Below, piece after piece: positions 22,149 to 43,882 of a stretch of DNA of 64,000 bases. Below the pieces are notes generated by a model. It saw nothing but the letters and a program-made list of their open reading frames with translations, did not search any database and was not told where the DNA came from. Both the position numbers and the translations under genes were made by a program. Source of the DNA: Ceratodon purpureus (Eukaryota; Streptophyta; Bryopsida; Pseudoditrichales; Ditrichaceae); contig CM026426.1 of the NCBI GenBank assembly GCA_014871385.1, positions 32,013,386 through 32,077,385 on the forward strand, read 5' to 3'. Within the stretch, counting starts at the first letter, position 1; the number at the start of each line of letters is the position of its first letter.

Positions 22149-22320
22149 TGTTTGATGGGTTTGATGGGGTCGTGAGATTTGCTACTTGTTGGGTTGTTGA
22201 AGGGTGTTGGGGATTTGCTGTTGTAGAAGTGTTGGGGATTCGAGTGATGGGGATTCGAGGGATACGAGGGATGCTCGGGGACTGCTTTAGATTTGGATTC
22301 GCGAATGTTGAAGATTCGGG

Positions 22321-22447
22321 CCCTTACACCACCCCGGCCGAGGAGGGAAGCCCCTCCAAGGAAGCCGCGGGGTTTTTTTTTATGCAATTCCATTTCAGCT
22401 CATGCGGCATGGTGTCTGCTTTCGGAGCAGACACCAGTGCTGCGGCC
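22321..22447. repeat. 127-bp direct repeat, left copy, with strong hairpins
   Basis: Nearly the same sequence occurs at 36283-36412 in the same orientation. It contains two hairpins: GGAGGG around loop AAGC, and a perfect 10-bp stem GGTGTCTGCT around loop TTCGG (22411-22435). A partial third copy of its first 40 bases follows at 22448-22490. The two full copies would be about 0.8-0.9 kb apart before the gypsy insertion, which suggests the terminal repeats of a small (TRIM-like) element. Confidence 0.75.
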
Positions 22448-22611
22448 CTTCATACCACTTCGGCCGAGGAGGGAAGCCCCTCCAGGGAATGGACTAAGTT
22501 AGCCACTAGTGCAGCATCGCTCAAGTTGCCATATTGCGTGCTAGCTGAATTGTATCTCAGTGATTGATGAGTACTCGCTAGACTTTGAAGTTTGGAATAC
22601 CAGCTCGTAGC

Positions 22612-23202
22612 TGTTAAAGGGTGATTAAGCTTCACCCTTAAAAAGCTTGGTTTCTTCTACTAAGTCCAATGAAATCTCGAAAAAAAATGTAATGCTAATC
22701 CTTATCCTCTTACTAGTACTGATCTGAGCATACTACTACCAGTGGGCTACCCCCTGCTCCTGATCCTATCATCAATGCAAAGCTTCCCCATTAAATTTCC
22801 CCTAACCCTAACATTAAATGCTCAACTCAGATCTGTAGATTTAATAGACCTTTACTCATTACTTTCACACCAAGTACAATCATACTGATCCACAGTAGTA
22901 TCCTCTCCCCTCCTACCTCCTAACCCCTCCTAACACACTACCATACCTCTGAAAACTCCAAGAGGCTTAGAGAGAGTGAGAGCCGCCATGCTCTCACTCC
23001 TCACTACCCCCCAAACCCTAGCCGTCATCCTCCTATGTCCATTTTTCATCCAGTTCAGAATTACATCCGACTGTCAAAACTTCATCCAAAACGCAGTGGA
23101 CAGTAAATGGACAGTAACTAACTAGTTACTGCTCCAGGCAGTTTTACTGTTCCTGCTCCTGCAGTACTGCTCTAGTAAAAAAGGTAAAAAATCCCTTTAA
23201 CA
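22612..23202 (-). repeat. 3' LTR of the Ty3/gypsy element (left copy)
   Basis: 591 bp, TGTTAAAGGG...CCCTTTAACA, with target duplication GTAGC at 22607-22611. I find only three differences from the right LTR, all transitions (near 22677, 22796 and 22884). Confidence 0.95.
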
Positions 23203-23216
23203 TTATCCCCCTTTTA
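23203..23216 (-). promoter_or_regulatory. Polypurine tract of the gypsy element
   Basis: On the minus strand AAAAGGGGGATAA directly precedes the 3' LTR, the expected place for plus-strand DNA priming. Confidence 0.85.
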
Positions 23217-23551
23217 GTCTGCATCTGCCCTCAGATGCTCTAGTTCCTAGTTTTATGTTGTTAACCAAAAAATAAAAAGGGAATAAAAATTAAAAATGTT
23301 TTAAACAAAAAAGTCCTCTAACTGGTCCTACCAGTACTTTTTTTCTTATTCTACTCCTAGCCACTAGTCTGCACGATCTCCATGGCATCCTGGTCCTGCC
23401 CTCCTGATGTTGTCTTCAGCTCGGGGACTGCTACTGGCCCGGGCAAGGTTCGAGTCGCAATTGGTCCTACTGGGACTGGTGTCGGAACTGGTCCAAGGGC
23501 TGAGGAGGTAGGAAGCAGATCAGGTCCCAACTGAGTCGAACCTGGTCTTGG

Positions 23552-26053
23552 CTATTCCACTGCTGGTGCTGCTGTCACAGTCTGAATAGATCCCGCTTGC
23601 TGACCACCCTCATCCTCCACTACTCCCTGTTCCTCATCAGACCAATAGACGAACGAAGGATAGGCCTCGGCAAATCTAACCAAATACTTGTTTTGGCGCT
23701 CCTGGTCCTCGTTGTAGGCTCTGATTTCTTCCCCTACCTGTTTCTTGGTGGTAGCCAAGATATGTCGCTGGAGCCCCCGGCTGGCTGGTGTGGCACTGCT
23801 GTTGGCCACCTCTAGTTGGCGCTTCAGCTCCTGGTTCTCTAGGGCCAGCTGATCGAACCCTCGAAGGCGAGCACTGGTGGCCCTCTCCAACTCTATTTGA
23901 CGCTTCTTGACTTCCTCTAGTTCTCCTCCTCGGGCTGCTCGTGCGGTCTTCTCTTGCTGCTGTGCTCTAGTGAGGGCAGCTAACCGTCCTTGGGTGTCTG
24001 CCCATACGGTTTTGAGTGTCGAGAGTTCCAGGGCTGTAGACTGTAAGGTTTCCGCTAACCCCTTGATTTTCCCTTCCAGTTCCTGATTGACAACCTGCAA
24101 CGTCTCATACGATGGTTGCCTCTCCTCTTGCTCCTGCTGCTGCTGCCTGATGCTGGCTGCCTCTGCAAGGACCTGCTGCAGTTGTTCCATCACCTGTCCC
24201 AACCCTCCGGCTATCCCATTAGTATCTTCCCCAGTAGACTTAAAAGTCCTTCCAAGATTACGGGGTGTCAGTGCCGCTGCGGGTTTGCCCTGCTGCTTCT
24301 TCAGTCTCGATTCTTCCCTTGGGACCTCCTGCTCCTGTTCTTGTGATGCCTGCTTGACTCGGGTAGGTGAAGCTCGCCGGGCCTCCTGCTGTGGTGGTGC
24401 CCGTAACTTCAGTAGAGCCCTAGAGACTTCCACCGGAGTATCTCCTGGCTGTACCTGTTTTGCCGTCTTGGCCTTCTTCCTGCCCCTTGTGACGGGTGTC
24501 CTTCTGTCGTCCGAGTTGATCGCTCCTCTCTCCACTTCCTCTGCTTCCTCTGAATCTAAGGATTCTGAGGAGCAGTCCTTGTACTTGGGCCGCTGCTCCT
24601 GCCGCCTTAATCTTTTCTGAGTTGCTCCCTGCCCTCTTGGTGTTTGCTGTTGGGGCTGTTTCCTTTTCTTCTTCCCTGGTGTGGTTCTCTGCTGGCCAAA
24701 AGAGGAGGATGACTGGTGTTCGGATTCGGCTCCTGGTCTCCCTGCCTCCTTAGTTACCTTCTGGTCCAGTACCCCCTAGGCTCCTTCTCCACTGATCACG
24801 TCCGGTGGTAGGTCACCTGCTACCCTTACTAGAGTCTGGTCCGGTTCACATTCGCTATCGTCCTTCTCTTCCTCACTGACCTGGGCTGGTGGTGGCTCTA
24901 CATACAACTTGTTATCCGGGAACCAGTTCTTCAAAAGGGCGTCTATAAGTTCCGCTCCTTTAATCTACTGGGTCTCACTGGTGTGCACCCTGATCAGCAT
25001 CCTCCTCAGGCTGGATAATATCAACGGAGCCCAGTTGTGTTCCCCCCTCTTCACGGCTTGGTACATGTTCTCCATCAGTTCGTTGCTGGCGTATAAGGAC
25101 TTCTTCTTCACACACATTACCTCTACCAGGGCCTTGACTCTATCCTGATACGGCTCATCGAACCCACTGACCCTGGTCCCATCCGTCTTGTGATCTGCTT
25201 TAGTCAAGCCAAACATCTTCATGTACCTCGGGTCCAGGTCTCCACTTGCCTTCGGTACTTTAGATGTCTTGCTGCCCTCTATCCCTAAAGCCTGTGATAT
25301 TGTCTATGCCGTGATCTCGATTGGTACCTCCCTGACCGTCGCTCTGATCGATGTGTTGTAGTCGGCCTTCTCTCCTCTAAGGTACTGAAAACCTTCCACA
25401 AAGTCCGCCACCAATTCTTCTCTTGGTACTGACCATGTGTACTCGTAAAAAGCTCCCAAGCCGACCTTTTCAGCCCAGATGTCGTCCTTTAGCTCCCGCC
25501 AGCCCTTCCAAAACTCCATAGGAATGAAGGTCAGGTTGATCTTCCTTCTCCTCTTCTTCTCCACTGTGACTGTCTTCGGGGCTCGAGCTAGAATCGGGGT
25601 CTTCTTCATTCTTGTGTTTCCCCCGGTCTTCTGTACTTCCTCCCCCTCTGGTCCGGTTTGCTGCTCATCTTCTATTGTTTGCTGGGTTGGTGGGGGCGGT
25701 GCATCCTCCCCTTCCTGCTGTTCCTCCATTTACTCCGGCCCTTCTGCTGCTCCTCTTTTTATGATATAGTCGTGTAAGGTCCCCTTTACCCCTGGTCTGC
25801 TGGCTGTTGCGTCCTCCTTCTGACCAGCGCTAGTACTTGCCATTCTATCCATTCTTCCTCTTCCTCCTATCTGTTGTACCGTTTCCTCTTGTCCCCAATC
25901 CCTGAAGGTTAAGACTGACTTCTGCTGCCTATGGACTCGACTGCTCTCTTTTTTTCGTTCTTGGTTCTTCCAAATTTTCTGCCTTCTAACTCCTACTCTC
26001 CTCTCTGTTCTCTTTGGATTTTTCCTCTGATTTTTTCTATGTTCTCTTTGCAA
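23552..26053 (-). pseudogene. Extra ORF of the gypsy element, downstream of integrase
   Basis: One frame of about 830 codons with in-frame stops at 25730 (TAA, directly followed by ATG), 25304 and 24965 (both TAG). It is in the same frame as the integrase tail that ends at 26072, so it may once have been a fusion or a readthrough product. The middle part (about 25500-25000) shows a helical domain with DRVKALVEVMCVKK and KRGEHNWAPLILSSLRRML. This aligns by pattern with the ORF at 43,883-46,009 and recalls the 'putative plant transposon protein' domain. The last 300 codons are Gln/Glu-rich coiled coil (QELEGKIKGLAETLQSTALE). Function unknown; a Gag-like or structural role is possible. Confidence 0.65.
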
Positions 26054-26071
26054 AGCCCTGATTCTTCGCCA

Positions 26072-29000
26072 CTACTCTATTCTCTCCCTGGCTGAACTGT
26101 TTTGAACTAGAGATTGATCTAATTCTAATTGAAAACCCCCCCAAAAACTCTGAACCTCTAGAGTCACTTGATCGTTTTGGAGTCGCCTTGCTCTTGTCAA
26201 GTATCTCCGCCCTCCTTCCTCTTGTGACTGTTCTTCGTCCTTGTGACTTTCTCGTGGCTGTTCTGCTCTGTCCCCTTCGTTGCTCTCCACACTTCCTCTG
26301 GTTAGGGTTTCTTCTTCAGGCCGGCTCCGAAGTTCTGCCCACTGCCGTTGTTGGTCCTCGTCCAGTCGCCGCCAATGCTCCTCTTCGACTCGCCTTTGGT
26401 TTTCTTCTTCCGCTTGATCGCTCCGCTCGTCTTCGCCCTGTCTTCTTCGCTGCTCTGCTTCGGTTTGTTGTCCTTCACCTCTTCTCTGCTGCTCGGGCCG
26501 CTGCTGCTTCCCGCTTCTCTGCTCTTCCTGTGGCGCTCCAGCTGTGAGGTGCTGCTCCCGGGTTAGTCTTTGCTGCTCCTCTCGTCTCCGCCGCTCCTCA
26601 GGCCGCCGCTGTTCGCCTTCTCCTTGTGCTCGATAGATGAGTTGTTGCCGTTGCGCTCCCTCGAGCTGCTGCTGCTGCGCCCCTTCGAGCTGCTGCTGCC
26701 GCACCCCTCCGAGCTGCTGCCGCTGTCTACTGACCTCCTGCGTTGCTTCTCTTCTATCCCCCTGGTGCAATGTCTTCTCGTCTCGGCCAGTAGTGTCTTC
26801 TTGTGCTTCTCTACTCTTTCGTCCCGCTTCTCTCCAATCTCCTCTACTCTCGAGGTTCCGTTGGCGACTCAAAACAAAAGAGTTGGAATGGTTCCTTGGC
26901 TCCACCTCATGCTCTCGGTATCCCATCCTCGTTTCTCGGGTTTCATCCAGGTTGGATGAAATTCGTTGATTTGCTTCCCTTCTTCGGAACTGAATGGATG
27001 ATGGTTCTTCTTCGGATGGATTCCATCCTTCTTCCTCCTTAATGAGCCGTCCACTTACCCTTCCCATCGTCTTTACTTCTACCGGTACGACCTCCATTAC
27101 TCCACAGTTTATGACCTTCAATCCTTTGTTTATTTTTTCCTTTTCCCTTTTTTCTTTATTTTTTTCTTTTTTCTGAATTTTCTCCTTTCCATTCTTTTTT
27201 TCAATTACCTCCTTTAAGTCTCCTTCCCTTAACTGCTGCCCTTCTTGTTGCTCATTTTCATTTATTTCTTGACTTTCACTTTTTCTCTCCTTGTTTTCTT
27301 TGCCCCTCTGCTGTTTTACTGCTTCACTTTCTCCTTTTTTACAGCTTTTTCCATTCTCTATTCCTGAATTTTCTAACCCTGATCGGACACTATCCCCCTT
27401 TTGTTCGTTGACCAGTCCTCTGGTCAAATGTGATGGTGTCCTGGTTTCCACTACTCCTTTCTCATAAAACCTATACGGTTTTAACTTATTAATGTTAACC
27501 AAGACGGGGTCTAGTTCGAAATTTTTTAACTGGACCAGTAGAGCAGTATTGTTGGGAAGCCTGTACTGGACCCTATAAGGTCCAAACCATCGACTTTTGA
27601 ATTTCCCCACATGCTCCTTATGGCCCTTGGGATACCAGAGCACATAATCGCCCACTTGAAAATCCTTTTGCTTGTAGTGTTGCTGGCTCCAAAGTGCCCT
27701 GTTCCACTGCTTGGCTCCTACTGCTTCCTGGGCCTCCAGTCGTGAAGTGTCCATCTGCTCCAAATCCGCAATCCTGGCTGCCAACACCCTGGTTGGTGTA
27801 TAATCTCTTTCTGAGCTGGTCTTCCTGGTTGGGACTATGTACTCTGTCGGCATCAACGGATGTAAGCCATAGACGAGTTGAAAGGGTGTGTGACCTGTAG
27901 TAACCTTGTAAGCAGTCCTGTAGGAGAGCAGTACAGTATGAAGATGTTCATCCCAATCTGTTCTCCTATCATTGACCAGCTTGCTCAGTAGGTGACCAAT
28001 CACCTTGTTTGTTGACTCTGCCTGGCCATTACCCTGGGGGTAATAGGTTGTTGATGTACGATGCTAGAGCAGAAAATGCTCCACCAGGTGTTCTATAGCC
28101 TCATTAATAAAATGAGAACCCTGGTCACTTACAAGTGTCAAAGGACACCCGTATCTTGAAAGGATTTGCTCGTACAAAAACTTAGCGGTAACTGCTGCTG
28201 AATTGGTTTGAGCGCCCTTGCTTCCACCCACTTGGTAGCATAATCTGTAGCCACCAAGATGTACCTGTTCCCTGTTTTGGATGCTGTTGGTTTAATGGGC
28301 CCGATAAAGTCCAATCCCCATTTCATAAATGGCTCTGCTGGCATGCTGGCCACTAAAGTAGCTAAACCAGTATTTGCCATGCCTCCCACTCTCTGGCATC
28401 TGTCACACGCCTTGCAGTATTCTGAAACATCCCGATGTATCGCTGGCCACCAGTATCCGGCGTCCAGTATCTTCCTGCTGGTGATGTCTTGCGAAAAATG
28501 ACCACCTGCTACTCCATTGTGCATTTCCTTCATCACCACCTCTGCCTGCACTGGATCCAGTACCCTCCTGACCACCAGATCGTGTCCTCGCTTGTGCAGG
28601 ATGCCTTGGACCAGTGTATAGGGTAGCGACTTCAGAATCAGCTTCCGCTGCTCCTCCTTGGACAAGTCTTGTCGTACAACACCAGATTTCAGGTAAGAAC
28701 GTACATCTTCAAACCATTGTGGTTTAACATAAAACAAACTTGCATCCTTGGTCTGATCCTCAACACCAGTTGCTGGTTCTCCGTTGGGCAGTCTTGACAT
28801 CGCATCTGCCACCCGATGATTTTTCCCTGGCTTATACACCACTGTAAAATCGTACTCTTGAAACAACAGTAGCCATCTTGCTATCCTTCCTCACACCTGC
28901 GGCTTATTGACCAGATACACCAGTGCTATATGGTCAACATAGAAAACAAACTTATTACCCAGTAGATAATGCCTATACTTATTCAGAGCATAAACCATTG

Positions 29001-30885
29001 CCAAAGCCTCCCTTTCAGTGGTACTATAGTTCTTCTCAGCAGAATTCAGTAGCCTACTGGCATAAGAAATGGGCTGGTCACACTTCCCTGTTGGATTCTG
29101 GGCCAGCATCACCCCTAGTGCAATATTCGAAGCATCCGTATGCACATGGAACTCCAGGTCCCATCTTGGTGCAATGAGAATCGGCGCATTCTGGTACTGC
29201 TCCTTGATTTTCTTCCATGCCTGCTCACACTGGTCCGACCAGATGAACTCCTCGGTCTTCCTCATGAGCCTGGTGATTGGCTCCATGATATGTGCATACG
29301 ACTTAATGTAGCACCTTTTTAACTGGGCAAAACCGTTAAAAACCTATACATCTACTGGTTTTTCTGGTCTAGGCATATTCTCTACTGCTTCGATTTTCTT
29401 AGGATCAGGAAATTTCCCTTCCTTAGACACAATGTGACCCATTATAATACCAGAGAAGACCAGTAGTAAACATTTCTCAGGATTTAGACTTATCCCATAC
29501 TCCCGGCATTTCTCAAAACACTTCCGCAGCTTGACCAGATGACTAATAATATCACTGTATACACTAAAATCATCCAAAAACAATTTCATGAAATCACCAA
29601 TGAAATCACGAAAGGCTTTGTTTACTGCCCTTTGGTATGTTGGAGGTGCATTTTTTAGCCCGAAAGGCATGACTATCCACACAAATGCTCCCCAGTGCGT
29701 TACAAAAGTAGTCTTGTGTCGGTCCTCTGGTGCTATCTGGATCTGGTGGTACCCGGAGTACTCGTCCAGAAACGAATACATCTCATGCCCTGCCACTGAA
29801 TCCAACACTTCCTCAGTAAATGGCAATGGATACGGGTCCTTTTTAGTGGCAGCATTCAATTTGCGAAAATCAATACAAATTCTCAACTTCCCATTCATCT
29901 TAGGAACTATAAGAATAGGAGATAACCAGGTAGCATCCTCTACTCGTGTAATGAATCAGGCCTGAAGCATTTTATCCAAAGTCCAGCTTCACAATACTGG
30001 CATAATTTGGATTCATGCGATATCTGGCCTGATGAAATGGTGGAATATCCTTTTCCAACTCAATTCTGTGCTGTGCAATTGAGGGTGGGATACCCTTCAG
30101 GTCCTTAGGGGTCCAGGCAAAGACATCCTTGAACTCCCGGAACAGAGCTTCTGCTTCACTGGCCTGTTCTGGACTAATGGCTGCATTAATCTTCAGATAC
30201 TGGGGCTCCTCCTCTGTTCCAAGGTTAATTTTTCTCAATCGCTCCGACTCTGGTAAGGTCCAGAATGCAATCTTCAGTTTCTTCACTTTCTCCCGGGCTG
30301 GTGTCTCATCGACCTCAATGTCGCCCTCTTCATAGTTGTAAAAATGGTCTGGGTATGCTCGCTCTGATCCCCCCTCCTGTTCCTGGTCCTGACCCTGGTT
30401 CTTTGCCTTGTTCTTGTGTCGTCCTGGTCTTTGTTGTTATCCTGGTCCTTGTTCTGCTCCATTCGAGGCAGAGTGACTGTTCCAACTGCTCGTAAGTCTT
30501 GCTCACTAGCTAACCACAAGGCTTCCTCCTCATCTGTCAGTCCTTCAGTAAAATTATAGCAGACTAGGACTTCAGGTAACTTAGGCCTGGGCCCCTTCCT
30601 CTGACTGACTGAGATTGTTTTTACAGTACCATTACCTCTGATGGTAACCAGGTTATTACCCCAGTCATGGTTTACCTTAGCATCAATTAACCAGGGTCTG
30701 CCTAGCAACATACTATAGGCTTCATTAACTTCTTTATTTTTAATAACAGTCAAGGTAATAAGGTAAGGAATACCGTGGATGTGAATTTTCACATTACGAA
30801 TCATCCCCACCGGGTCAACGACTGTCTGGTCCGCCATTCTTAATCTGAAAGGAGCAGGCTGTGAGTCCTTGAGGCCCAGTCTTTT
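26072..30885 (-). pseudogene. pol region: protease end, reverse transcriptase, RNase H, integrase
   Basis: In order: the protease C-terminal part with LLGRPWL (about 30690); RT (29950-29350) with KLRICIDFRKLNAA and the active-site variant LFLDDFSVYSD; RNase H (29180-28890) with Asp/Glu/Asp in HTDASN, TEREAL and FYVDH; integrase with an HHCC finger ([11 protein letters not shown]), [17 protein letters not shown] and GQAES, so all three catalytic acids survive. A GPY/F-type module (WFGPYRV, about 27590) follows, then a 400-residue Glu/Arg/Gln-rich tail. Damage: frameshifts near 30375, 29970 and 28150, and stops at 29344, 28891 and 28064. It cannot make active enzymes as it stands. Confidence 0.92.
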
Positions 30886-33800
30886 TCACTCCTCCTCAGT
30901 TATCAGGTTCACACCTGATCCTCCGTCCAGTAGGACATTCTCCAGAGTCCCATTGCCTATCTGCACAGTTAACACCGGCAGTTCTCTGTCAACATCAATA
31001 GCCAGACTGCCTTTTAAATCGGTCTTACCTGGTTGACTGGTTGTTGGCTTCTTGCTTGGTACTGGCTCTGGATGAGTGGACTGGTCCTCTGCCATTTCTG
31101 GGAATACGTGGGCCTTCACAAATTCGGTCAAATTAGTGGCCATCTTCAGAAGCTGTCCTGGTGAGACTGTGATAGGACTGTCCAGTATTTTTCTTCCAAC
31201 CACAGTTGCATAATGCTGCTCCTGGTTGTTCTCTGTACTGATCTCACCTTCTGCCCCCAATTCCTGCTCGACGGTCTTGGAGCTGTAGGCTAGTGTATCT
31301 GAGTCTGGGAATCCTGCCCACTCATTATCCAGCACTTCACCATCTCCTTCCTTCTCTGCTGTTTTTAAAGTTGCCCTGAGTCTCTCTGCTTCTGCCTTCT
31401 TCTGCTCTTCTTGAAGCTCAACTTCCTTCAAGGTTTCTAGCATCGAATTCCTGATTTTTTCTTCCTCCTGCCAGTCCTCCTTCGTTCTAGCCTTTCTTGG
31501 TTCAGGTTCCCTTGATTCATCCTGGATAGGTAACATTCCTGCCTTCAGCCTCTGGGCTCTGGTCATGGTAGCTACCCCCACTGACTCTTCAGGTTCTTCT
31601 ATTAGCTCAATCTCCACATTACTGACATGGTGATCCTGCTTCTTGTTGGTCTTCTCTTGGTCTGCCAAAAACTGGTCCCATTGTGCCTTCTTGGGGCAGT
31701 TCCAGCTTCTGTGATCTACTCCTCCACACAAGAAACAACTTGGTGGTTGATCACCATAACTCCTTTGTTGACTGCTGCCTGCCCTGGGATTAGGTGGTCG
31801 TTGGTATCCTTGGCTGTAACTGTAAGTTCCTGCTGGTTTAGAAGCAGAGACTTCATTGACACCAACATGTTCTTCTCCTTCCTTCTTCGCACCTGACCCC
31901 CTCTGGTTAGCTGGGTTGTACCAACAGTTCTTATCATCATGGCCCAGCTTCTTACAAATACCACAGGCTTTCCTTGGAGCCTCCTGGTCTGGTTCCTTCC
32001 TGGTCACTGTGGCTGCCTTACTGCTGGTCTCCACTTTCTTCACCTCGATCTTAGTGGGTTTACCACTAGAATCCGTGCAGTTCTCCTTGCATCTCAAAGC
32101 TGCATCCACCAACTCTGTCAAACTCCTGACTGGTGCCACGCTAATAGTGATCTTGATATACTCCAACAGCCCTGCTCGAAAGTTGGTGATCCTGAACCCT
32201 TCTCCTGGATCAGATTGTAGACATTTTATCAATGTCATAAACCGATAGTAGTCCTGTACCTTCTCTCTGTCCCCCTGTTTGAAGGACTTCAATTCCCTCT
32301 TTACTGCCTCATCAGTAGTCTGGTCTCTGTACCTCCTCCTGAAAGCAGCTTTAACATCCTCCCATGAGCAGTATACATGGTTCTCCACGAAATTCTCATA
32401 CCATGCACCAACTTTGTCCAGCAAAGTGGTACCCATTAGGTTGATTATCACCTGCTCATCAGTTTCTCCATTGTGCCATAGGGTCCTCTCAAACTGCCGT
32501 ATGTGGGCATCTGGATTCGTCCCTTCCTTGTACTTCGTGTAGGTCAGCGGCTTCCTTTGTGCCACAAGGACTGGTCCTGTCACTGGGGGTACTCTGGGTC
32601 TAGCAGCTGGTGGGTAGGCTGGTGGACCATGCCTCACTGGATAACTGCTGTCCACTGTATCCCCTGGTACTCGTATTCCTGCAGGTGGCCTAGTATCATA
32701 AGGCATCCCTCTCATTATCTCCGCTGGTTTTCTGTATCTTGTTCCAGCGTCAGGAACTCCTGCTCCGACTTCTGCTCCTCCGCTTGGCCAGTATGCAGTT
32801 CTGTTGACTTCTGGTCTGTACTCATCACCTGTGAGGTGATCCACATAGGTAGAATGTACTCCTCCTCCTCCTGTTGGGCTCACCCGAGTCCTCGAGGTTG
32901 GGAAATGGTCTGTCCCTGGCCTTCTTGGTATAGCAGATGTGGTGTAGGGTGCTCCCATCAATTCTGCTTCCCTCAGCTGACCTGGTCTGTCCCCCTGGAC
33001 CACTGATTGGTCATATGCTATCCACGGATCCGCCCTTGGTTTGGCCTGGAGTTTCTGGCTCTCTTCCCTCAGTATCTCCTGCCATTTGTATAGGGTCGCC
33101 TGCCGGGCAGCTTCTTTCATCTCTTCCTCCCTCTTATTATGATCCTCCAATCTCTGTGCTTCTTGTAATAAACGCAGAGCCTCCTGTCTTAGCAGGTCCT
33201 GCTGCATTGCTTCTTTTCTCTCCGCTGCCTGCTTCATTTCCTCCCTTCTTTGAGTCTCCTGCCAGGTTTGAAGAGCCTCCTGTCTCTGCTTCTCCTGGTC
33301 CTGCTCTTCCAGTTTCTTTGTTTCCTGCCATAGTTTCATGGCTTCCTTCAGTTTGATCTCCTCCCGATTCTTCTCTTCCCAAGCCTCCATGGTTTCTCTG
33401 AACCTAGCTGCCTGGCCTAGCTCCTCCATCTGCCTCCTGTACAGGTCCTCCGTTGCCTGCTGGTTTCTTCGTTCTCTTTCTGCCTGCCTTCTAGCCTGCT
33501 GTCGAGCCTTTAACTCCTCGAGCTGTCTTCTGTCCTCCTCATCTTCCTCCAGCTCCATTCCTTGGAACTGCTCTTGTGCAAAATGTACCACTGGTCTCCT
33601 GGGATTCACCTGTGCTGGCTTACCCGTTTTGTACATCTCTGACAGTGCTGCTGCTCCTGTCTGGATTCTGTCTTTAGTGTGAGCTTCTTCCAATTTCTTT
33701 TTCAGCGTTTCCAATGTCTCCACCAAATCACCTGGTGTCTTCTCCCCTGGTTTTGGTGTGTCTGGTGTGCTGCCTCCTTTCTTCTCCTCCTCCTGGTAAT

Positions 33801-34224
33801 GGTCGTATGCTGATGCCATTCTGGTCTGGGGGTTCCAGCAATGCTGTGTGTCTCCTTCACCTGGCCTTGGAAATTCCCTTCTGCTGGTCCTAGGTGATAG
33901 TGGATGTCCCTCATACTTCCGAATTTCTTCTTCATCCTCCTGCCAATTCTTGAAGCTTGGGCCACGTTCTCCTCTTGCTGACCCTGTCCTCCTGCTTATT
34001 CCAAGTATTGTCTCCTGGCTCGAATTCTCTCCTACCAGGTCCATATCAATCAGGTCCCTGGTTCTCCCTTTTGCTATGCTTTCTTCTGAACTTAATTGTC
34101 CTCCCATTGGTTTTCCTACTTCTGCTGCTGCTCTTTGCTCTCTGAGTTCGTACCTTGCCAACCGTTCTGCTGCTTGTCTCCTGGCTATCTCTTCCTTTTC
34201 CCACCCTGGGTATTCTCTATCCAT
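30886..34224 (-). CDS. Gag (capsid/nucleocapsid) with start of aspartic protease
   Basis: 1112 codons, the longest intact frame in the window. Residues about 180-400 are Glu/Arg/Gln-rich coiled coil. The retrotransposon gag domain lies around 555-670 (YTKYKEGTNPDAHIRQFE). Two CCHC zinc knuckles, CGICKKLGHDDKNC (about 755) and CFLCGGVDHRSWNC (about 830), bind RNA. The frame ends with VLLDGGSGVNLIT, the active-site region of a retroviral-type protease with Gly where Thr/Ser is usual. The TGA at 30886 lies inside the protease and the same frame continues beyond it, so gag and pol were once one frame. The ATG at 34224 is the first good start after the leader. Confidence 0.9.
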   Translation of the reverse strand: MDREYPGWEKEEIARRQAAERLARYELREQRAAAEVGKPMGGQLSSEESIAKGRTRDLIDMDLVGENSSQETILGISRRTGSARGERGPSFKNWQEDEEEIRKYEGHPLSPRTSRREFPRPGEGDTQHCWNPQTRMASAYDHYQEEEKKGGSTPDTPKPGEKTPGDLVETLETLKKKLEEAHTKDRIQTGAAALSEMYKTGKPAQVNPRRPVVHFAQEQFQGMELEEDEEDRRQLEELKARQQARRQAERERRNQQATEDLYRRQMEELGQAARFRETMEAWEEKNREEIKLKEAMKLWQETKKLEEQDQEKQRQEALQTWQETQRREEMKQAAERKEAMQQDLLRQEALRLLQEAQRLEDHNKREEEMKEAARQATLYKWQEILREESQKLQAKPRADPWIAYDQSVVQGDRPGQLREAELMGAPYTTSAIPRRPGTDHFPTSRTRVSPTGGGGVHSTYVDHLTGDEYRPEVNRTAYWPSGGAEVGAGVPDAGTRYRKPAEIMRGMPYDTRPPAGIRVPGDTVDSSYPVRHGPPAYPPAARPRVPPVTGPVLVAQRKPLTYTKYKEGTNPDAHIRQFERTLWHNGETDEQVIINLMGTTLLDKVGAWYENFVENHVYCSWEDVKAAFRRRYRDQTTDEAVKRELKSFKQGDREKVQDYYRFMTLIKCLQSDPGEGFRITNFRAGLLEYIKITISVAPVRSLTELVDAALRCKENCTDSSGKPTKIEVKKVETSSKAATVTRKEPDQEAPRKACGICKKLGHDDKNCWYNPANQRGSGAKKEGEEHVGVNEVSASKPAGTYSYSQGYQRPPNPRAGSSQQRSYGDQPPSCFLCGGVDHRSWNCPKKAQWDQFLADQEKTNKKQDHHVSNVEIELIEEPEESVGVATMTRAQRLKAGMLPIQDESREPEPRKARTKEDWQEEEKIRNSMLETLKEVELQEEQKKAEAERLRATLKTAEKEGDGEVLDNEWAGFPDSDTLAYSSKTVEQELGAEGEISTENNQEQHYATVVGRKILDSPITVSPGQLLKMATNLTEFVKAHVFPEMAEDQSTHPEPVPSKKPTTSQPGKTDLKGSLAIDVDRELPVLTVQIGNGTLENVLLDGGSGVNLITEEE

Positions 34225-35176
34225 TGCAGTACAGTTTTGCTGCTCTTCCCTTGGTACTCCCTAGTCAGGTGTTCTACTGGTCCGGCTCGTGTCTCCAGTA
34301 ACTGAGTCTGCTTCTCCAAAACTCCCGGGTAGGTGCTGTCGGCTCCTGTCCTCAGCCCTCCTCTGATCTGTTGAATGCTAGTCCTGCTGTTTCCTGGTTT
34401 CTGCCCAGTCCATCCCTTTGCCACCTTTCCACTCCGGTTCCTTAAGGAGCTGTCAGTCTTTTACTGTCCTACTGTAGATAGTTTCATGCCCTTAGCTTTG
34501 CAAGTTCTAGCATAGTCCTAGTGTTTCCAAGCTTCCATGCATTACGGTTTTGCAAGTTTCTTCCATGGTTTTTTCCTCGTTCATTTACTGTCCATTCATT
34601 TTTGTTTTTACTTTTCCGATTTTCTGATTTTCCATTTTTCTTCTTGAGCTACTTACTGTTTTCTTAGCCCGTTTTTACTGTTTGCAGCTTTACCCTCTGT
34701 TCCCCACTGTTACCTTTACTATCCGGCCATTGGTTACTAACTTCGTAAATTTTTTATTTTTACTGCTACTTTTTTACTATTCGACTGTCTTTTACTGGAT
34801 AGTAACTTTTTAATTTTTTAACTGCTACTGTTTACTGCTGGTTTCTTCACGCAACCTACTGTTCCTTTCTCTTACTGCCTGAATGCAACAGTAGTTTGAA
34901 ACATACCTGGATACTGGCGACTATCCCCCCTCGACTGTGGAGCTGTCCTCAGCTCCTGTTGATGTTGACTGTTCTGCCATTGGTTCCTCCACCATAACTC
35001 TGGAACTGAATCTGCTCGCAGCCACGTACTGAGCTCCGGCTGCCTTGTTGAACGAATCCTTTGACTGTGATCTGTGACGTGAATCCCGTGCCTCGGCCAC
35101 TGTGCCTGTAGATCTGGTCCACCCCTGTCCTAGGTTTGTACAGAATCGCAGCCAGAGATTCTGGTCCGTTCTTAAT

Positions 35177-35188
35177 GCATGGTCGCCA
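35177..35188 (-). promoter_or_regulatory. Candidate primer-binding site of the gypsy element
   Basis: One base after the 5' LTR the minus strand reads TGGCGACCATGC, beginning with the TGG expected for pairing to a tRNA 3' end. I cannot name the tRNA. It is not the TGGTATCAGAGC of initiator tRNA-Met. Confidence 0.6.
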
Positions 35189-35189
35189 A

Positions 35190-35780
35190 TGTTAAAGGGT
35201 GATTAAGCTTCACCCTTAAAAAGCTTGGTTTCTTCTACTAAGTCCAATGAAATCTCAAAAAAAAATGTAATGCTAATCCTTATCCTCTTACTAGTACTGA
35301 TCTGAGCATACTACTACCAGTGGGCTACCCCCTGCTCCTGATCCTATCATCAATGCAAAGCTTCCCCATTAAATTCCCCCTAACCCTAACATTAAATGCT
35401 CAACTCAGATCTGTAGATTTAATAGACCTTTACTCATTACTTTCACACCAAGTACAATCATACTGATCCACAGCAGTATCCTCTCCCCTCCTACCTCCTA
35501 ACCCCTCCTAACACACTACCATACCTCTGAAAACTCCAAGAGGCTTAGAGAGAGTGAGAGCCGCCATGCTCTCACTCCTCACTACCCCCCAAACCCTAGC
35601 CGTCATCCTCCTATGTCCATTTTTCATCCAGTTCAGAATTACATCCGACTGTCAAAACTTCATCCAAAACGCAGTGGACAGTAAATGGACAGTAACTAAC
35701 TAGTTACTGCTCCAGGCAGTTTTACTGTTCCTGCTCCTGCAGTACTGCTCTAGTAAAAAAGGTAAAAAATCCCTTTAACA
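35190..35780 (-). repeat. 5' LTR of the Ty3/gypsy element (right copy)
   Basis: 591 bp with the same ends as the left LTR and target duplication GTAGC at 35781-35785. Confidence 0.95.
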
Positions 35781-35785
35781 GTAGC

Positions 35786-36831
35786 TACAGAGGAGCTGCT
35801 CTAGAAGCTGGACTGTGGAGATCAGTGGCAGCGAGCTGGCGGATGAGGATTCTGGCTCACTGTGGGTGTTGCAGGTGTGATAAGTATGTATTTTGCGGAT
35901 TTGCAAGGTGTGGACGTTCGTGAGCTGGGGGTGGGTTGGGGAATGGACGTAGGGGACGTTGTTGAAAGTTCAATTGAGCTAGTTGGGAAATTGATGGGCG
36001 TCATTGATGACTGAGGAGACGATTCTCGTGCAAGGTTATTTGGTTATTTCTTTGACGTGTCTATTGTTTGTGAATCTTTAGGTTGCAGGATTTTAGATGA
36101 TTGTGGTTGGATGAGGGTTCGTCTAGTTGAATTATCAGTGAGTGCTTGCATTTGTGTTTGGGAGAAAACACAGAGTTGTTGGTAGAAAGGCTGAAGTTGA
36201 AATGAAGTCAATGTTCCACATCTGAGGCTCTCAGTGATTCTTGCACTTTGACCATGTTGGAGGTGACGTCGAAAGTACTAAGCCCCTCACACCACCCCGG
36301 CCGAGGAGGAAAGCCCCTCCAAAGAAGCCGCAGGGATTTATTTTAATGCAATTCCATTTCAGCTCATGCAGCACGGTGTCTGCTTTCGGAGCAGACACCA
36401 GTGCCGCGGCCCCCCTTTTTTGTTTTTAAAAATTTCCAATTTATTTTTTAATTTTTTAATTTCCTCTCCTTTCTTCATCCCCCTCTTCCGTGGTCACTCC
36501 CTGTCCCTGCTCCTCTCTCTGTACCCCACTCTCCCTGTCCCTGTCCGTCTCCATTTCCCTTTGTTGTTCCCTCCCCCTGTCTTTCTCCCTCTCTCGCCCC
36601 CACTCCCTATCCCTCTCTTATTATTACCTCTCTCTTAACTAATTTTTGGTTTGAAAGCATTTCATTTTATTTATTGGGTTTATTCTACTTTATTTAGTTT
36701 GTATTAAGGTGTGAATATGTATAATCTTTCGTGCATGGATTTTCTCTATAGATGAGAACCGATCTACAGGGGAGAGTATGATTTTAATAATTGACATTAG
36801 TGCATTTTTTATGAGTTACAGGATACTTCAC
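35786..36831. other. Noncoding segment between gypsy and next methyltransferase exon
   Basis: Continues the sequence interrupted by the gypsy element. It contains the right copy of the 127-bp repeat, then a C/T-rich tract (36420-36640). No supported gene. Confidence 0.5.
36283..36412. repeat. 127-bp direct repeat, right copy
   Basis: Matches 22321-22447 with few changes. The 10-bp-stem hairpin with TTCGG loop (36375-36399) is conserved exactly. Confidence 0.75.
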
Positions 36832-37456
36832 AGCAGAACATGGGGACCGAGAGTGAAAGCAAGGGACCTGAGGAGACTAAGGTATAGTTACTGATGTTTT
36901 CATTTTTTGGATACACATGTTCTTATTATCCTAAATAATTCAAGTTGAGCATTTGAAAGTTCTTTCAAATGATTTGAAAACTCTAACTTCCTCATGTGCC
37001 ATGTACTTACAGGTAGGCTCTGATGCTCCCGACATGTCTGTCAATTCTCCAATCTATGTGATCAACCTTTCAGACCTGTCAGACCTAGAGGATGAGCGTC
37101 TTTGTACCTGTGATTTAGCCATTCCTTTAGGTGTAGATACTGGACCTTTCGAGGTCCAGTCACCCCAGGACATGCCTACGTCGCCTGTTTATGAGCCCAC
37201 CTCTCGAGTGTACATGCCCACCTCTCCAATGTACATGCCCACCTTGCCACGTCTTGGTACACCGCCGTCTTCGCCAAATCCTCCAGCTTCACCTTTGATG
37301 TTGAGGAGGCCAGCCCCTGTAGTGTTTGCCCTTCCGGCAATACTGCCCAGCGCTTGCCGTAAAACCAGGCGGTTCTGGAGGAGGCGCCATCATTGGAATA
37401 GTAGAGAGGCTAGACAGTACTATGGAAGGGCTCCTTGTAGAGTGGCACGGCCTTGA
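36832..37456 (+). pseudogene. Exons 2-3 of the methyltransferase gene: SIM-like motif and CTD-like repeats
   Basis: Exon 36832-36885 (after GAGTTACAG, before GTATAG) encodes 18 residues. The exon from 37013 reads to a stop at 37456, though its true donor is not clear. Residues YVINLSDLSDLEDERL form a SUMO-interaction-like motif. Then come repeats close to the Pol II CTD heptad (MPTSPVYEPTSRVYMPTSPM) and a proline-rich stretch (LGTPPSSPNPPASP). Both features suggest a nuclear protein with regulated contacts. Phases match exon 21092-21535 upstream and exon 37597 downstream. Confidence 0.55.
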
Positions 37457-37596
37457 TGCTTGGTGCCTTAGATGAAATTTGAGTTGTTTTTGTTCTACTC
37501 TTTCATTTATGAGAAAATCTCTAAGTGACTGGTAAATTCCATTTTTCAGTATTTGCAATGTTGAGTTTGATTGTTCATTTCTATGGCTTATGGCAG

Positions 37597-40189
37597 GTAC
37601 TTGAGTTTACTCAAACAGAGGACGTGTTGCCATCATCATCAAAGCCTCAGGATATGAAAGACGCTGTACTAGGAGAATTGCTTCATCGAACACAGCATAA
37701 AGTTGACTCGATCAACGTCATCAATGGCGTTCGTATTCAGCCCTTGAGGAAGTCTTGCATGCTTGTCCCATTGTGTAGAATGGTCGCAATGGCAAAAGTG
37801 AGACCGGTTGGCGAAATGGGCGTGCAACATCTAGAGAGGGAGTTCGTGAAGGGTTACAGAGATGGGGATTGCGTGATGTACATTTCCATGTTCAACACTA
37901 AAGAGATGTCAATGGATGTCACGGAGGAAGTGAAGGCAAAGTGGAGCCCATGCTAACTCAGGGCTAACAAAGCCTTCGAAGCCGACCTCCAAGAAGACAA
38001 TGACCTCAATCAATTCAGTGGCAAAATGTTTTTTGTATGGGAAGGTAACCATCGCCTTTCAGCTTGGTTACGACACATCAACAAGCATCATGCCGACGAC
38101 CCAGCTTAGCACATCTCCGTGCATTGCATCATATTGGACCCCCGCGGCCAAGTGGGCAATCTTCTCCATGCCATGCAGGACATCAACTGGTAAGAATTTC
38201 TGTTGTACAATGTCTCAAATTTGAGTTCAGGTCATCCTGCTCTTATGAAGTGTTTTCTAAACAGTTTCTCTTGTCCACAGGTCTACTGAGAATGACCATG
38301 TGAAGAGTAATCTTCCAGCGAAGTTATTCCGCATCCGCTCTTTCGGTGTCATGAAGTTAGAAGAATTCAAAGATCTTCTAAGCCCAGAAGAGTTTGAAAT
38401 TTGTGTGCAGAACAAACACGCAAAGGACCGATGGTTCACCTTGACAACGAAGGTTTTCATTGCGTTCCTATACCGAGTAAGAATTTATTCCATGACTCAG
38501 CTAGTACATTCGTTCTGTTCCTTACTTTAACTAATGCATTTCAAGAAGTTTGTACATTGATTTCAGTTCATTGTCGTTGTACAGAGGGAGATTGCGGTCG
38601 CCTTGGATCAAGCAGCCAGAGCATGCATAGAGAACACGCCAAAAGAGGATCAATCTGGATCTGGAGTTTGGAATGCAATGACGACTCCATCAAACAACTT
38701 TATTGATGCCGTCAAGAAGAAGGACTTCACCAAGTACTTGGCTATTGCGAATCCCAAAAATGGTGACGACTTCCTTGCTGAGGTGAATCCTTAATCACTT
38801 ATTCTTAAGCTAATTTGTTCCCATCTCCTATGTACTCCTAATTACATAATGCTAACTGTTCAGTTCTAATTGCAGATTAACCGCCACTTCAGCGATGTCA
38901 ACAAACCTGAGATGACATTGGACAAGCTGCAGAAGATTGTGCTGGCGGCAGTAGAACCCAAGTACAAAGCTCGTTGGTTGAGGTGGTGGAACTCCTCTCC
39001 GACTTCAAGGCAATCTTATAGGTTCCCACCACCAGAGTTCAAGGAAGCTGACCTCGACCATTGACTAAATAGAGCTTCATTCTGGGCAGGGGTATGCTTT
39101 TCGATTTACAAAACAGAAACTGTCGTTCTCATTTTACCACTTTCATTGTCGTTGTCTAAATCGACTGCCTGTCACTTGTAGTTGGAAGAAGCGGTCATCC
39201 AAGAGTTTAAGGACATCTGTAAGGCTGAGGAGCTCATCATCAATTGGAATGCGACCCCTGATGTTCAGCGACCAGGCGATTTCGTGGAGAGTTGGCGTAT
39301 TCTCCTTTGGGACAGAGCATTCCCGGCATTCCTTGGATCCAAGGCTAAGAAGACTTTTGATAAGAAGACGATTTTCTTGAAATTCCCTAGAACGGAAGAT
39401 GTTGTCAAGCAAGTCACCTACCGGTATGATTCTTTACTCAAACATAAGTGCATTTCAAATCCTGCCGTTCCTCTCTCCCACATACTAAGTCATTCAAAAT
39501 TGGCCCTCACTAGGTACTTCAAGAGAGAGCTTCTTCCAAAAGGCGCCATCACTGTCCAACATCTCTTGAAGTACTTTGCTTCATGGATCCAGAGAGGCTC
39601 GGACCAGTGTATCTACTCTCCTCAGCAGTTGAAGAGGTACAAAGCTCCCCACATTGAGGCAGGATGTTGGTATCTCGATTGCCTCCGTGGTTTTACAGTT
39701 GATTCTGAGGCCGATGTCAAAACATTATTTGATATTTGAGCGCCAGTCGTTGAAGACTCCAATGAAGGTTCTGAAGATGACAAAGAACATCAGAGTCAAT
39801 CATCTGCACCTCAATCGAAGAGAGGGAGAGGTCGGCGACTGCGAACTCTGGGTTCAAAGTCGCAGACCTCACAAGATACTGGGGCTGAGTCTTCCTCACC
39901 AGGGAAGGAGACACCCAACGCTTCTCCAACTATAGACGTCCCAATGCCAACTTCGACCACTGCGAATGCTTTTTCATCCATTAGTGCTTCTGCAATCACA
40001 CGAAGTCTCATTGAGCAGAGGAAGGCCAAACTATATCCTCAAACCACTTCTTCCGCTGGAGCTTCGATTTCCACATATGTTTCCGTCTTCAAGTCATGTG
40101 TGGATTCAATGTTACGGCGAAATAAGAGACTAAAGAGAAAAGGTGGCGGCAACCCAGATTGGATCAAGACTCAAGACTTCATTCGCAAG
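37597..40189 (+). pseudogene. ParB-like and middle regions of the methyltransferase gene
   Basis: Exons 37597-38189, 38281-38476, 38567-38782, 38876-39091 and 39182-40189 all join in phase with GT-AG introns. The first encodes IQPLRKSCMLVPLCRMVAMA, REFVKGYRDGD and FFVWEGNHRLSAWLRHI. The GNHRLxAW box resembles the ParB/sulfiredoxin-like nuclease fold (GNHR or GERR box) that often precedes DNA methylases in phages and bacteria. The following 500 residues are helical and unrecognised. A Ser-rich linker (QSKRGRGRRLRTLGSKSQT) precedes the methylase. Stops: TAA 37954, TAG 38107, TGA 39062, TGA 39737. The ParB call rests on one motif and position. Confidence 0.55.
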
Positions 40190-40275
40190 GTATGTTTCGT
40201 TCTTTAGACATTTCTTGGATACATCCACTTCTATTCATTATATAGTTTCTAACTCTGCTTTCTTGTTTCCTCAAG

Positions 40276-41580
40276 TTTGGAGCAGGCCGCCAAAACGAAG
40301 TTCCGGACCGATGCAAACAAGAGAACCATCTGGGACTCGACTTGATCATTGCCAACATCCCTGAGAATCTTCCCGTCCCTTCCGTTTCTGACCCCCCCAC
40401 GAGCATTCCGCCTTGGAACTCTCGCTATAAGGATGATGTGTACGACATCTTCCATTTTGCAGAACAATACTTGCAGACATATGGTGCCCTCTGCCTCATC
40501 TACAACATTAATCAAAAGTTGGCTAAGGATATCGAGGAAGAAGCTGAGGGTGGTGACTTCGTGCTTTACAAGGACTGGTGGGGCGTCAATGTTCTCAGCC
40601 TGACTTCTCCTACGAACCCCAAGAACTTGGTAATTTCATCAGTACATTTCCTTCTCTTTACTTACTGATAACCCTTCCGCTTAATTACACTCACTAGTTT
40701 TGCTTGAGTGCAGACTATTCGGTTCTGGAATCGCGTCTACGTTCGTGGTGGCAATGAGCCATCTAATTTCTCCTTCCAGACGAAGAAATCCCAGTTGATA
40801 CATGGGGTCCTCAACATTACCGAGAGTGATGCCATTTTTAACTAGACCGATGCGGAGTCGCAAAAAATCAATGGAGACATTCCGTGGAGAGTCTCAAGGG
40901 AAAAAACCCATGAGATGATGCAGAGCATAATTAGAGAGCTTTCGAAGCCCGGAGACATAGTCCTCGACTGTTTCGTTTTTCCTCTAATTTTTTCCACAGT
41001 TTCTAATTTCTTCGTTACTCTCCGAGTTTCAGGGGCCTCCATCAAGGCTTGCCAGGCTTTTGGTCGTCACATTCTAGCTTTTGAGGATGACGAAGCCATA
41101 TTCAACGCCATTCTCAAACCGTACATGGCTAGACCATCCGCCATGGGCCCTCCTAAACATCCTAGGCCGGCAGCAGCAGACGAAGCGCCTCCAAAGAGAG
41201 CAAGACCTGATCAGTGGTGTAAGTCTTCTATTGTTTTTTCAATATATCCAAGCATTGCTTCTCTTTACAACTCTACGTACTCGATCTAACCACAATCAAT
41301 TTTCTATTGTAGAGTAGTTTCGGCAACACCGCCACGTGGGCCAAGAGCAGTGTCCACTCCATCGTGGCGTCTTCATTCCAGCCCGATTCAGCCTTTTATA
41401 CTTCCGGATTACGCAGAAGGCTTAGCACAGGCGTTTCAATCTGGAGCCCTTACATATGTTTCTAGTCAGCCAACTACTTTTGATCCCAGGGCCCTTCTAT
41501 TCGTCGATGTAGAGGCTGTAGAAGGAGATTCAGAGTCATCTAGTTCTGAGAGTAGAAGTAGCGATTGTAGCATGTTCTGA
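40276..41580 (+). pseudogene. Beta-type DNA N6/N4 methyltransferase domain (C-terminal)
   Basis: Pieces appear in the order of beta-class amino-methyltransferases: first LDLIIANIPENL, in the place of motif IV (usually DPPY or similar), then WNSRYKDDVYDIFHFAEQYL and GALCLIYNIN. After an intron (40630-40713) come TIRFWNRVYVRGG, then SKPGDIVLDCF, an intron-like break (about 40975-41030), and GASIKACQAFGRHILAFEDD. The last two resemble motifs X and I, which bind S-adenosylmethionine. TAG at 40843 interrupts it, and the join near 40340 may hide a frameshift. The tail (RPDQW, then 41350-41580) is disordered. Such enzymes methylate adenine N6 or cytosine N4 in DNA. The NIPE variant may mean loss of activity. 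Confidence 0.65.
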
Positions 41581-42556
41581 GTTTGAAGGAGGCTTTGGTC
41601 TTTCATTGTTTTCATCTGATTTGATTCGATTTAATTGGAATTGATTGCATAATCAAGGGACGCTGTCTCTAACCTCTCGTTGTTAATTGGATTTGCAAGT
41701 TTCCAAGAACTTCTAAAAACACTCTAGTGTATGTTGAACTGATTAACTTCGTATTCGTCCTTCGGACTCCAATGGCAACCCTCGTACGAAAAGTAATCCC
41801 ACCTCGCTAGCCGAAGGCATGCGTATTCAGGGCTGCTGTCAATCTCACACTTCTACCTCTTTGACATAGCACGAGCGTTCTCGATGTCTTCAAACGTGAT
41901 TACCGTCGGAGGAGTCCAACCCTGCGGTGCACTACTACCTATATGATCCTAGGGGATGGGCCCATCCACCATCCGCTTAAGCAAATCCTGTAAAATCGTT
42001 TCACAGGCAACGACCTCAAATGAATCGCCCATACCTTCAAACAACTCCCTAGCAAGTACAAGCTTAAGTTCTACAAGAATTATTGAGCTAATACAACTTC
42101 AAGGACGTCTGCTAAGGTTTATATGGATCGTTGCTTAACACTTAAGCTAGGAATGGTCTTATCTTAAGCTAGGAATGGTCTTATTCTTCAACCAAGACAA
42201 GCAGTCTGACTTGGTATACATCTTGGATTCAGCAGCTCTATTATTGTTCACGAACTCCGAATTATTCCACAAAGTTTTGAGCCATTTATTTATGCTTCTT
42301 TCGCATTTTTTTTCCTCTAATTACCTACATTACCTATTCAATATTTACTGGTATGATCTAAAAACATGATGCTTGAACACTCATATCTGAATCTAATTAG
42401 GGACCAAATCTAAAGGATTGTATGCATGAAGTCATCATGACATCAGCCCTAATTTGTATCTCGGAAAACAAACGTAAGAAATTCTTACTAGAGATAACCC
42501 TGAATTCCATGGTAATATACTCTTTTCCTTAAAATCATGCCTTTTTTTAGAAATTT
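41581..42556. other. Right arm of the methyltransferase element, noncoding
   Basis: No supported gene. TGAAGTCATCATGACATCA at 42426-42444 resembles a mutated copy of the TGACGTCA palindrome found near the MULE ends. Confidence 0.45.
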
Positions 42557-42657
42557 TCCACGGTTATAGGGTATACTTTACTTTTGAAAATTTGGCTAAT
42601 TCTCAATTCTGTGCTCTCCATTCTCTGCTCTCCGCTCTCTGCTCTCCGCTCACATAC
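42557..42657. repeat. Right terminal inverted repeat of the methyltransferase element
   Basis: Read on the minus strand it starts GTATGTGAGCGGAGAGC, continues with repeated GGAGAGC/AGAGAGC units (about five against two at the left end), then ACAGAAT. It reaches CCCTATAACCGTGGA, the same landmark as at 15310-15324. Confidence 0.7.
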
Positions 42658-43882
42658 GAACTTTCCCCTCTAACTCATCATTCAAAGCGGACAACTGAAA
42701 TGCGAGAACAAGCAAAGATTGTTTGCATGTCCAATGTAGACCTTTGTGAACAAATGACATACAAGTAGATTTTTAGTCTTGTATATTTCTAACACTTTGC
42801 TAAACCCTATGATTCAAAGAATAAATGAATCACAACTCAATTGAACTGTCAATTCAGTTCTACTATATATCAATATCATGATCTTCAAATGAGTGCTTTG
42901 TGAACCAAAATTGAACCTTTACCTCATGGTCTTTCGTTTTTGTTGTCGTGTCGGAACACGGAAACGCAACTTACATCCGGATAGCACTCCAACTAAGCGT
43001 AAACTTCCGTATTGTCACTAGGTTTCGAGTATCGTCCACGGACTCAATAGTGTTTCACCAACTAATTACTCCTAATAGTTCCGAGCCTTGCCACTGCTCG
43101 GATAGTGTCTCCGGAACGTAACTCCTCGACTATCTCTCTCTCTCCTTCTCTTTCTCGTCAGGTGTTTCGTCCACAAACCCCAACGTCTCGGAACAGCTAC
43201 CGTCTCACAACTGTCCCAGAGTACTCTGGCCAGCACGTCACACAGACGACCGCTTCCGATCCGTAAGACTACAACGACAAACCAATCCGGATCTGGAAGA
43301 ACCAGGATCCGATTATCCCTAGGCGACCCGTGCCACGTTCCGAATCCCCCTCTCACAGTGTACGGAACCTCTTCAGAAGTTCAGGGAGCCCGATCAAGTA
43401 TTCCTCAATCCGCTTTGACTCTAGTGATGGCTATTCCGCGTGAGGTTGGGTTGGGGACGGAACAGTGAGGCTTCACTCCTACGACAATCCCCTAAATCTC
43501 TCCGCTCAATCCCATTACCTTTCCGGTTCGGGTCTCGTCACAACTCCCGTCACCTTCCTATCCGAGCTACAGCGGAACTCTCATATCCTTCCCGGATCAT
43601 TCACACTTAACTGGAAACCACGCACAGTACTTGCAAAACACGAATACTTTACTGATAAGGAATATAGGGAGAAAACATGCAAAACGAAGACCCGGACTGC
43701 ATCGCCTTCCCCGTTTAAGTAAGCAGGGGTTTTCACAAAAGCGGCGGTGCCGGCAGCTCAATCAAAAACCCTAATCCTTAATTATCTACCTAGAATCCTA
43801 CTTTACGAATAATCCGGATCTCCCGATCCGAAACCTACTCCTATAAATCCGGAAAGTGACTGCCAGTTGCAACGAGAGGAAT
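42658..43882. other. Flank and GC-rich 3' part of a retroelement remnant
   Basis: From about 42950 the composition changes sharply to GC-rich with many CGGAT/ATCCG words, as in the ORF that follows. No gene. It is possibly a degraded LTR, but I could not pair it with a second copy. Confidence 0.4.

Follow-up and report, generated by a model that had tools for sequence, protein, structure and literature searches.

A moss DNA transposon gene with ParB-like and methyltransferase-like domains carries a type-matched palindrome array that may form a self-recognition cassette

In the genome of the moss Ceratodon purpureus, we closely examined a window of 64,000 bp (G000:C6:32013386-32077385, on contig CM026426.1) in which a sequence-only reading had singled out positions 37597..41580 as a plant transposon gene joining a ParB-like segment to a DNA methyltransferase. 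This stretch was found to be the 3' part of a larger, dead DNA transposon. Its accessory gene, with about 14 exons on the plus strand, begins near 21092, far upstream of the extent first proposed, and ends at 41580; it encodes a domain of ParB/sulfiredoxin fold together with one of N6_N4_Mtase type, so that the idea of one gene with two prokaryote-type domains within a plant transposon was borne out. One intron of this gene harbors a tandem array of palindromes, whose type is matched to the ParB-like exons of the same copy. We consider it an evenly balanced question whether gene and array work as a self-recognition cassette resembling ParB-parS, in which a methyltransferase-like domain is the effector, carried by a multi-copy moss transposon.

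The array lies between exons B and 3 and consists of units of mostly 117 to 255 bp, most of which contain a palindrome. In relatives of the window copy, the units measure 213 bp (41.9 repeats) in c9, 224 bp (9.1 repeats) in c2, 255 and 198 bp in c10, 211 bp (11.5 repeats) in c11, and 213 bp (3.9 repeats) in c12. Four palindrome types were found, namely type I, CTGGTGTCTGC-TTTCGGA-GCAGACACCAG; type II, CCTACTGTCGT-CA-ACGACAGTAGG; type III, ACCCACATTCTGTACAGAATGTGGGT; and type IV, GACACCCACC-CCAAT-GGTGGGTGTC. Units are not always perfect: the c9 array, with about 42 units, has 33 cores that match type I exactly, and the arrays of c10 and c4 show no perfect dyad when arms of 9 are required. In the window, a nested retrotransposon and decay have reduced the array to two unit remnants on the plus strand (22321..22448 and 36284..36412, 92% identical), each with a type I palindrome (core GTGTCTGCTTTCGGAGCAGACAC at 22412-22434, second core at 36376-36398). 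Separately, L047 (c4) carries at 7843-8512 a 117-bp tandem repeat that is apparently coding (39-aa units) and has no dyad of types I to IV; in L061, from the same clade as the divergent L047, a dyad with shorter arms was called six times.

The ParB-like exon is present in at least 150 copies in its own genome, as all 150 scored candidates, out of 1903 first-look candidates, matched; three relatives were read first, and two divergent relatives were added later. Across the genome, 458 occurrences of the type I core were counted, against 0 for its reversed control. Among the 100 type I sites listed, 8 clusters were seen, each 5' of an exon 89-97% identical to the type I exon, and in 7/8 of them the distance from array to ParB exon is 0.8-1.3 kb, the eighth being incomplete among the sites listed. 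The type II palindrome occurs 1706 times (control, 0) and forms about 12 clusters among the matches listed, 3 of which adjoin a type II-like exon within the 150/1903 scored candidates. A type II cluster was also noticed roughly 5 kb away on the 5' side of a type IV copy (G000:C1:28269636-28270549).

For palindrome typing, 51 sequences representing 48 distinct loci were used (L012, L009, and L011 were also read at greater length, as c2, c9, and c10). Type I alone was present at 29 loci, type II at 11, type III at 3, and type IV at 1, with no palindrome at the other 4; more than one type was found at 0/48 loci. A tree was built from 26 distinct ParB exons, of which 22 have an assigned palindrome type. 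Types I, II, and III each fell on one branch with support of 100, 98, and 100, and the distribution requires 3 changes, the fewest possible. Exons 5-7 track the palindrome type in all compared sequences, being 93-96% identical within type II or III and 67-75% identical between types I, II, and III. Identity of types IV and III is 86% over exons 5-6 and 77% over exon 7; the two are neighbors in the ParB tree yet have distinct palindromes. Exons 8-9 follow the type in part (84-90% between II and III). The gene has palindromic sites in its vicinity that are matched to the type of its protein, as in a ParB-parS pair, a match that physical linkage could also produce.

Transposase and methyltransferase exons swap between types, and the ParB exons stay with their own palindrome. 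A comparison of c2 (type I) with c11 (type II) revealed 90% identity over 6.5 kb, covering the transposase and exons A-B. Between c9 (I) and c11 (II), silent sites are near saturation from exon 5 to exon 9 (synonymous divergence [dS] of at least 1.07, with exon 6 off scale), intermediate in exon 10 (dS 0.77), and little changed in exons 11-14 (dS 0.05-0.11). Likewise, L064 (II) and L058 (III) share 90-96% in exons 11-14 and are 73% alike in their ParB exons, and L056 (III) matches c9 (I) at 94-96% in exons 11-14. These data point to exons 5-7 and the array as a candidate specificity block. The element genes are under purifying selection: for exons compared across types, the ratio of nonsynonymous to synonymous divergence (dN/dS) is 0.20-0.24. 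The higher value between the window copy and c9 (0.36) would be expected of a window copy that has decayed.

The GNHRLSAW-type box noted in the sequence-only reading is present at ~38044, within the exon at 37550-38189. In fold comparisons of this exon, the top rows were ParB and its relatives, with sulfiredoxin first in one comparison. No ParB match was obtained in Pfam, PHROGs, NCBIfam, or PDB sequences, and the ParBc profile matched neither the window exon nor any of 33 relatives, for which the sequence may be too divergent. A ParB/sulfiredoxin fold is therefore supported but not proven, its basis being fold comparison and not sequence, and the ParB-like segment claimed earlier stands at the level of fold. 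In public contigs of several origins, 40 relatives of the exon were found, with identities of 45-90%; no relatives were confirmed in viral and prokaryotic contigs, and tblastn against phages with the ParB exon gave one match, at an E value of 0.4. The whole 978-aa read had no match in the protein database at an E value of 1, while exon-sized pieces did, probably because the database entries are exon-sized.

The methyltransferase-like domain is a homolog of PF01555 (N6_N4_Mtase), the profile match that the sequence-only reading had anticipated. The window copy matched with an E value of 7.6e-7 (29.7 bits against a curated cut-off of 26.7), and three spliced relatives with E values of 9.2e-10, 5.8e-7, and 1.4e-9 (39.3, 30.1, and 38.6 bits), the match covering mainly the motif-I half. 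Together with the 40 relatives and 150 matching copies of the ParB-like exon, these scores show more than a chance resemblance. The motif I cofactor loop, [DE]W[NKS]AGTG, is conserved in 9/9 relatives aligned and deleted in the window copy; in c10B, motif I is altered to DWNARTG. For the methyltransferase exons, dN/dS between c9 and c11 was 0.16-0.67, based on few changes. A second, distant family of methyltransferase-bearing exons (L001, L004, L005, and L008) was also observed, with motif IV as DQPY, DQPF, or DTPF and motif I in the form DL[AS]ASTGA; L001 matches PF01555 over almost its full length.

In the mechanism that we propose, ParB binding to the palindrome, methyltransferase activity, and a benefit to the element are all putative. 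The ParB-like part (exons 5-7) would bind, as a dimer, the palindromes in the intron of its own gene and would load or spread at the array, as ParB does from parS. The methyltransferase-like domain would thereby be brought to the element's own DNA, where marking may counter host silencing or control the element's own transcription and transposition. Since the types swap other modules and keep ParB with its palindrome, the ParB-plus-array block may act as a specificity cassette separating element lineages. That this ParB-parS cassette is interchangeable, with each ParB type reading its own palindrome array and the fused amino-methyltransferase-type domain acting there, so that lineages sharing transposase and methyltransferase recognize and mark only their own kind, is a proposal we put forward tentatively, rating it below even.

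Several points weigh against a cassette of this kind. Near-copies inflate the locus count, and the four types represent three switches. Adjacency alone could produce the joint pattern of exons 5-7 and palindromes, and physical linkage is the main rival: the type match would reflect unequal exchange within a lineage, with arrays hitch-hiking with the nearest exons, and the palindrome would have another role, for example, as an intron RNA hairpin or in chromatin structure. The closeness of array and ParB exon in 7/8 of the listed type I clusters fits linkage, and by sequence inspection, the short spacer of type I would also give a stable RNA stem. We nevertheless regard linkage alone as rather unlikely, as type I units vary in length and sequence while the palindrome and its neighboring bases persist (the core was the search anchor, so only the fall-off in the flanks is informative), and symmetric changes in the two palindrome arms do occur. 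Types III and IV, which are tree neighbors with 86% likeness in exon 5, also differ in their palindromes, which demonstrates switching and not its cause. In other DNA transposons, transposases bind subterminal repeats, and with a transposase-like gene in the same element, the palindromes might be transposase binding sites, i.e., internal repeats for transposition. This is highly improbable, as the transposases of c2 (I) and c11 (II) are nearly identical yet accompany different palindromes, and the arrays are internal and not at the element ends.

The effector half of the cassette reading is weakened by motif IV. The catalytic motif IV of amino-methyltransferases is (D/N/S)PP(Y/F/W), e.g., DPPY with its aromatic residue, and it is absent from 10/10 aligned sequences, which read DIPEN (8/10), DVPQN (1/10), or NIPEN (1/10, the window). 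Enzyme activity of this PF01555 homolog is doubtful because motif IV reads DIPE rather than DPPY; of the DNA methylase proposed earlier, the homology thus holds, and catalysis cannot be assumed, given that the window copy has NIPE and its relatives have DIPE or DVPQ. A dead enzyme that binds only its cofactor or partners, in a protein working as a DNA-binding regulator, would account for the loss of the aromatic residue, and we see it as a serious possibility, although one somewhat less likely than not. On the other side, motif I is retained in 9 relatives, dN/dS for exons 11-14 is 0.27-0.41 between c9 and c10inv, and the distant paralogs carry DQPY, DQPF, and DTPF.

The whole transposon, a degenerate copy that includes the nested retrotransposon, spans 15153..42668, with ends matched to relatives c2, c9, c10, c11, and c12. 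It is flanked by target-site duplications at 15143..15152 (TCGAACTCAT) and 42669-42678 (TCTAACTCAT, 9/10 identical to the left copy), and its terminal inverted repeat regions lie at 15153..15200 (beginning GTACGTGAGCGGAGAGC) and 42610..42668 (ending GCTCTCCGCTCACATACGAACTTTCCCC). A blind blastn search for terminal inverted repeats around the gene gave nothing convincing; the ends came from comparison with relatives, and the terminal sequence pattern gave nine ends across c2, c9, c10, c11, c12, and the window. Relative c11 is 16,677 bp long with a perfect 10-bp target duplication, GACATAACAT, so that a 10-bp duplication is present in 2/2 copies with both ends known (window and c11). The minus-strand transposase-like gene at 16786..20480, which has stops and frame breaks in the window and open frames in c2 and c11, is assigned to the same element because c2 is colinear with the window at 15542-22072 (86%) and 36660-38861 (90%). 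The open frames of c2 (752 aa) and c11 (739 aa) show 95% protein identity (dN/dS 0.19, dS 0.10), and their C end has a weak SWIM-like zinc finger (12.1 bits, below the cut-off of 19.6). The transposase did not match the MULE profile. Mutator-like elements have target duplications of 9 to 11 bp, and from the 10-bp duplication and the weak SWIM match, without a MULE profile match, we call the element Mutator-like only. A DIRS-type or virus-derived element was also considered and rejected, with no such Pfam match among the 20 scanned of 89 listed open reading frames of the window. No sign was seen of the domestication of the methylase suggested earlier: in many copies the gene moves along with its transposon, and the window copy is dead.

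All exons of the accessory gene lie on the plus strand. Exon A (21092..21535) encodes a basic N-terminal part with the first ATG and two stops (21140 and 21392), and exon B (21753..22067) is acidic. The large intron follows (22068..36821, phase 0 on both sides), containing the nested retrotransposon and what is left of the array, then exon 3 (36822..36881) and exon 4 (37013..37436), which has proline-rich repeats and a donor, GTAGAG, present in all 5 aligned type-I sequences. Exon 5 (37550..38189) carries the ParB/sulfiredoxin-fold domain with EGNHRLSAW and stops at 37954 and 38107; exons 6 (38281-38476) and 7 (38585-38782) follow the palindrome type together with it. Exons 8-10 (38876-39091, 39182-39423, and 39514-40189) form a middle region without a known domain, with stops at 39062 and 39737. 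The methyltransferase motifs of the sequence-only reading were all located: exon 11 (40276..40629) carries LDLIIANIPENL, with NIPEN at the motif IV position, exon 12 (40714..40973) SKPGDIVLDC and a stop at 40843, and exon 13 (41033..41219) ASIKACQAFGRHILAFEDD, the remaining motif I and next strand, with GASIKACQAFGRHILAFEDD. Exon 14 (41313..41580) is a C-terminal tail ending in a stop. A deletion in the window copy removed the motif-I segment and splice donor of exon 12 that relatives retain, and for this reason the letters between LDC and GASIK are intron. Exon order, splice signals, and phases are mostly repeated in aligned copies, in agreement with the phase-matched introns first noted, and the phases join exons A, B, 3, and 4 to the ParB exon, apart from the exon 4-5 junction in c11 and c12. 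From these phases, we infer that exons A to 14 form a single gene and transcript. An apparent frame shift in exon 11 was ruled out, the true acceptor lying 10 bases farther upstream than first placed, and the open reading frame at 36935-37453, whose stop recurs in five type-I sequences, was rejected as a separate gene, because a phase-1 donor and matching acceptor give a continuous frame.

The genome comprises 362,488,568 bases in 151 contigs, of which C6, with the window, has 110,524,308. The C. purpureus genome is described as 360 Mb, with U and V chromosomes of >100 Mb each (PMC8000587), and since both exceed 100 Mb, the window is probably located on a sex chromosome. By hand count, 46/150 scored ParB-exon copies contain stops (37 on C6, 9 on other contigs). 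The nested element at 22612..35780 (minus strand) is a Ty3/gypsy-like long terminal repeat (LTR) retrotransposon with a 1124-aa gag frame, TG..CA ends, and a GTAGC duplication at 22607-22611 and 35781-35785; because its 594-bp LTRs are 99.3% identical, it inserted recently into a dead element of greater age. Elsewhere in the window, a DUF7869 domain (56014-56511, minus strand; E value of 8.5e-38) possibly belongs to another transposon, and 69%-identical repeats in open frames at 3570-4345 and 50421-51196 may represent a further transposase family in two copies.

The moss element resembles bacterial ParB-parS in its ParB fold, in having palindromic sites close to its gene, and in type-specific matching, and it differs in its GNHR box, up to dozens of tandem sites within an intron, and the fusion to a methyltransferase. 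The usual ParB box is GERRxRA. No ParA was noticed at the element, where no search aimed at ParA was made. N4CMT of bdelloid rotifers is a host gene and not a transposon gene. Like the moss protein, it represents a bacterial-type amino-methyltransferase in a eukaryote (PMC8885841). Retrotransposons of charophytes and dinoflagellates also carry a DNA methyltransferase, in their case DNMT, a host-derived C5 cytosine enzyme (PMC5890265). The sequence-only reading had proposed an undescribed system; a ParB-like and N4C/N6A methyltransferase fusion is, however, already reported for the 1104-aa accessory protein of the brown-alga transposon Sola1-1_Ec32 (Ectocarpus), with similar transposon proteins in green and red algae (Iyer 2011 and Petroll 2025, as cited by PMC12477816). 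There, too, both domains are in one protein, as inferred for the moss, encoded opposite the transposase of a giant DNA transposon, and the authors suggest that it binds and modifies its own element (PMC12477816). Compared by description only, the moss element differs from this Sola1 element in its host, its 10-bp duplications, and its many copies, and the section on Sola1-1_Ec32 mentions no target site, palindrome array, or type-matched specificity (PMC12477816). Among open-licence papers, none was seen that deals with moss elements of this kind or with palindrome arrays in genes of this sort.

As far as those papers show, the array, the type matching, and the moss family are new here, and the ParB and amino-methyltransferase fusion is not. 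A candidate target is visible in the form of palindrome arrays that are specific to each type and lie within the gene itself, with at least four types in a probably cultivable moss, so that self-binding and self-marking by such transposons become directly testable. If true, bacterial partition-type specificity would enter eukaryotic transposon biology.
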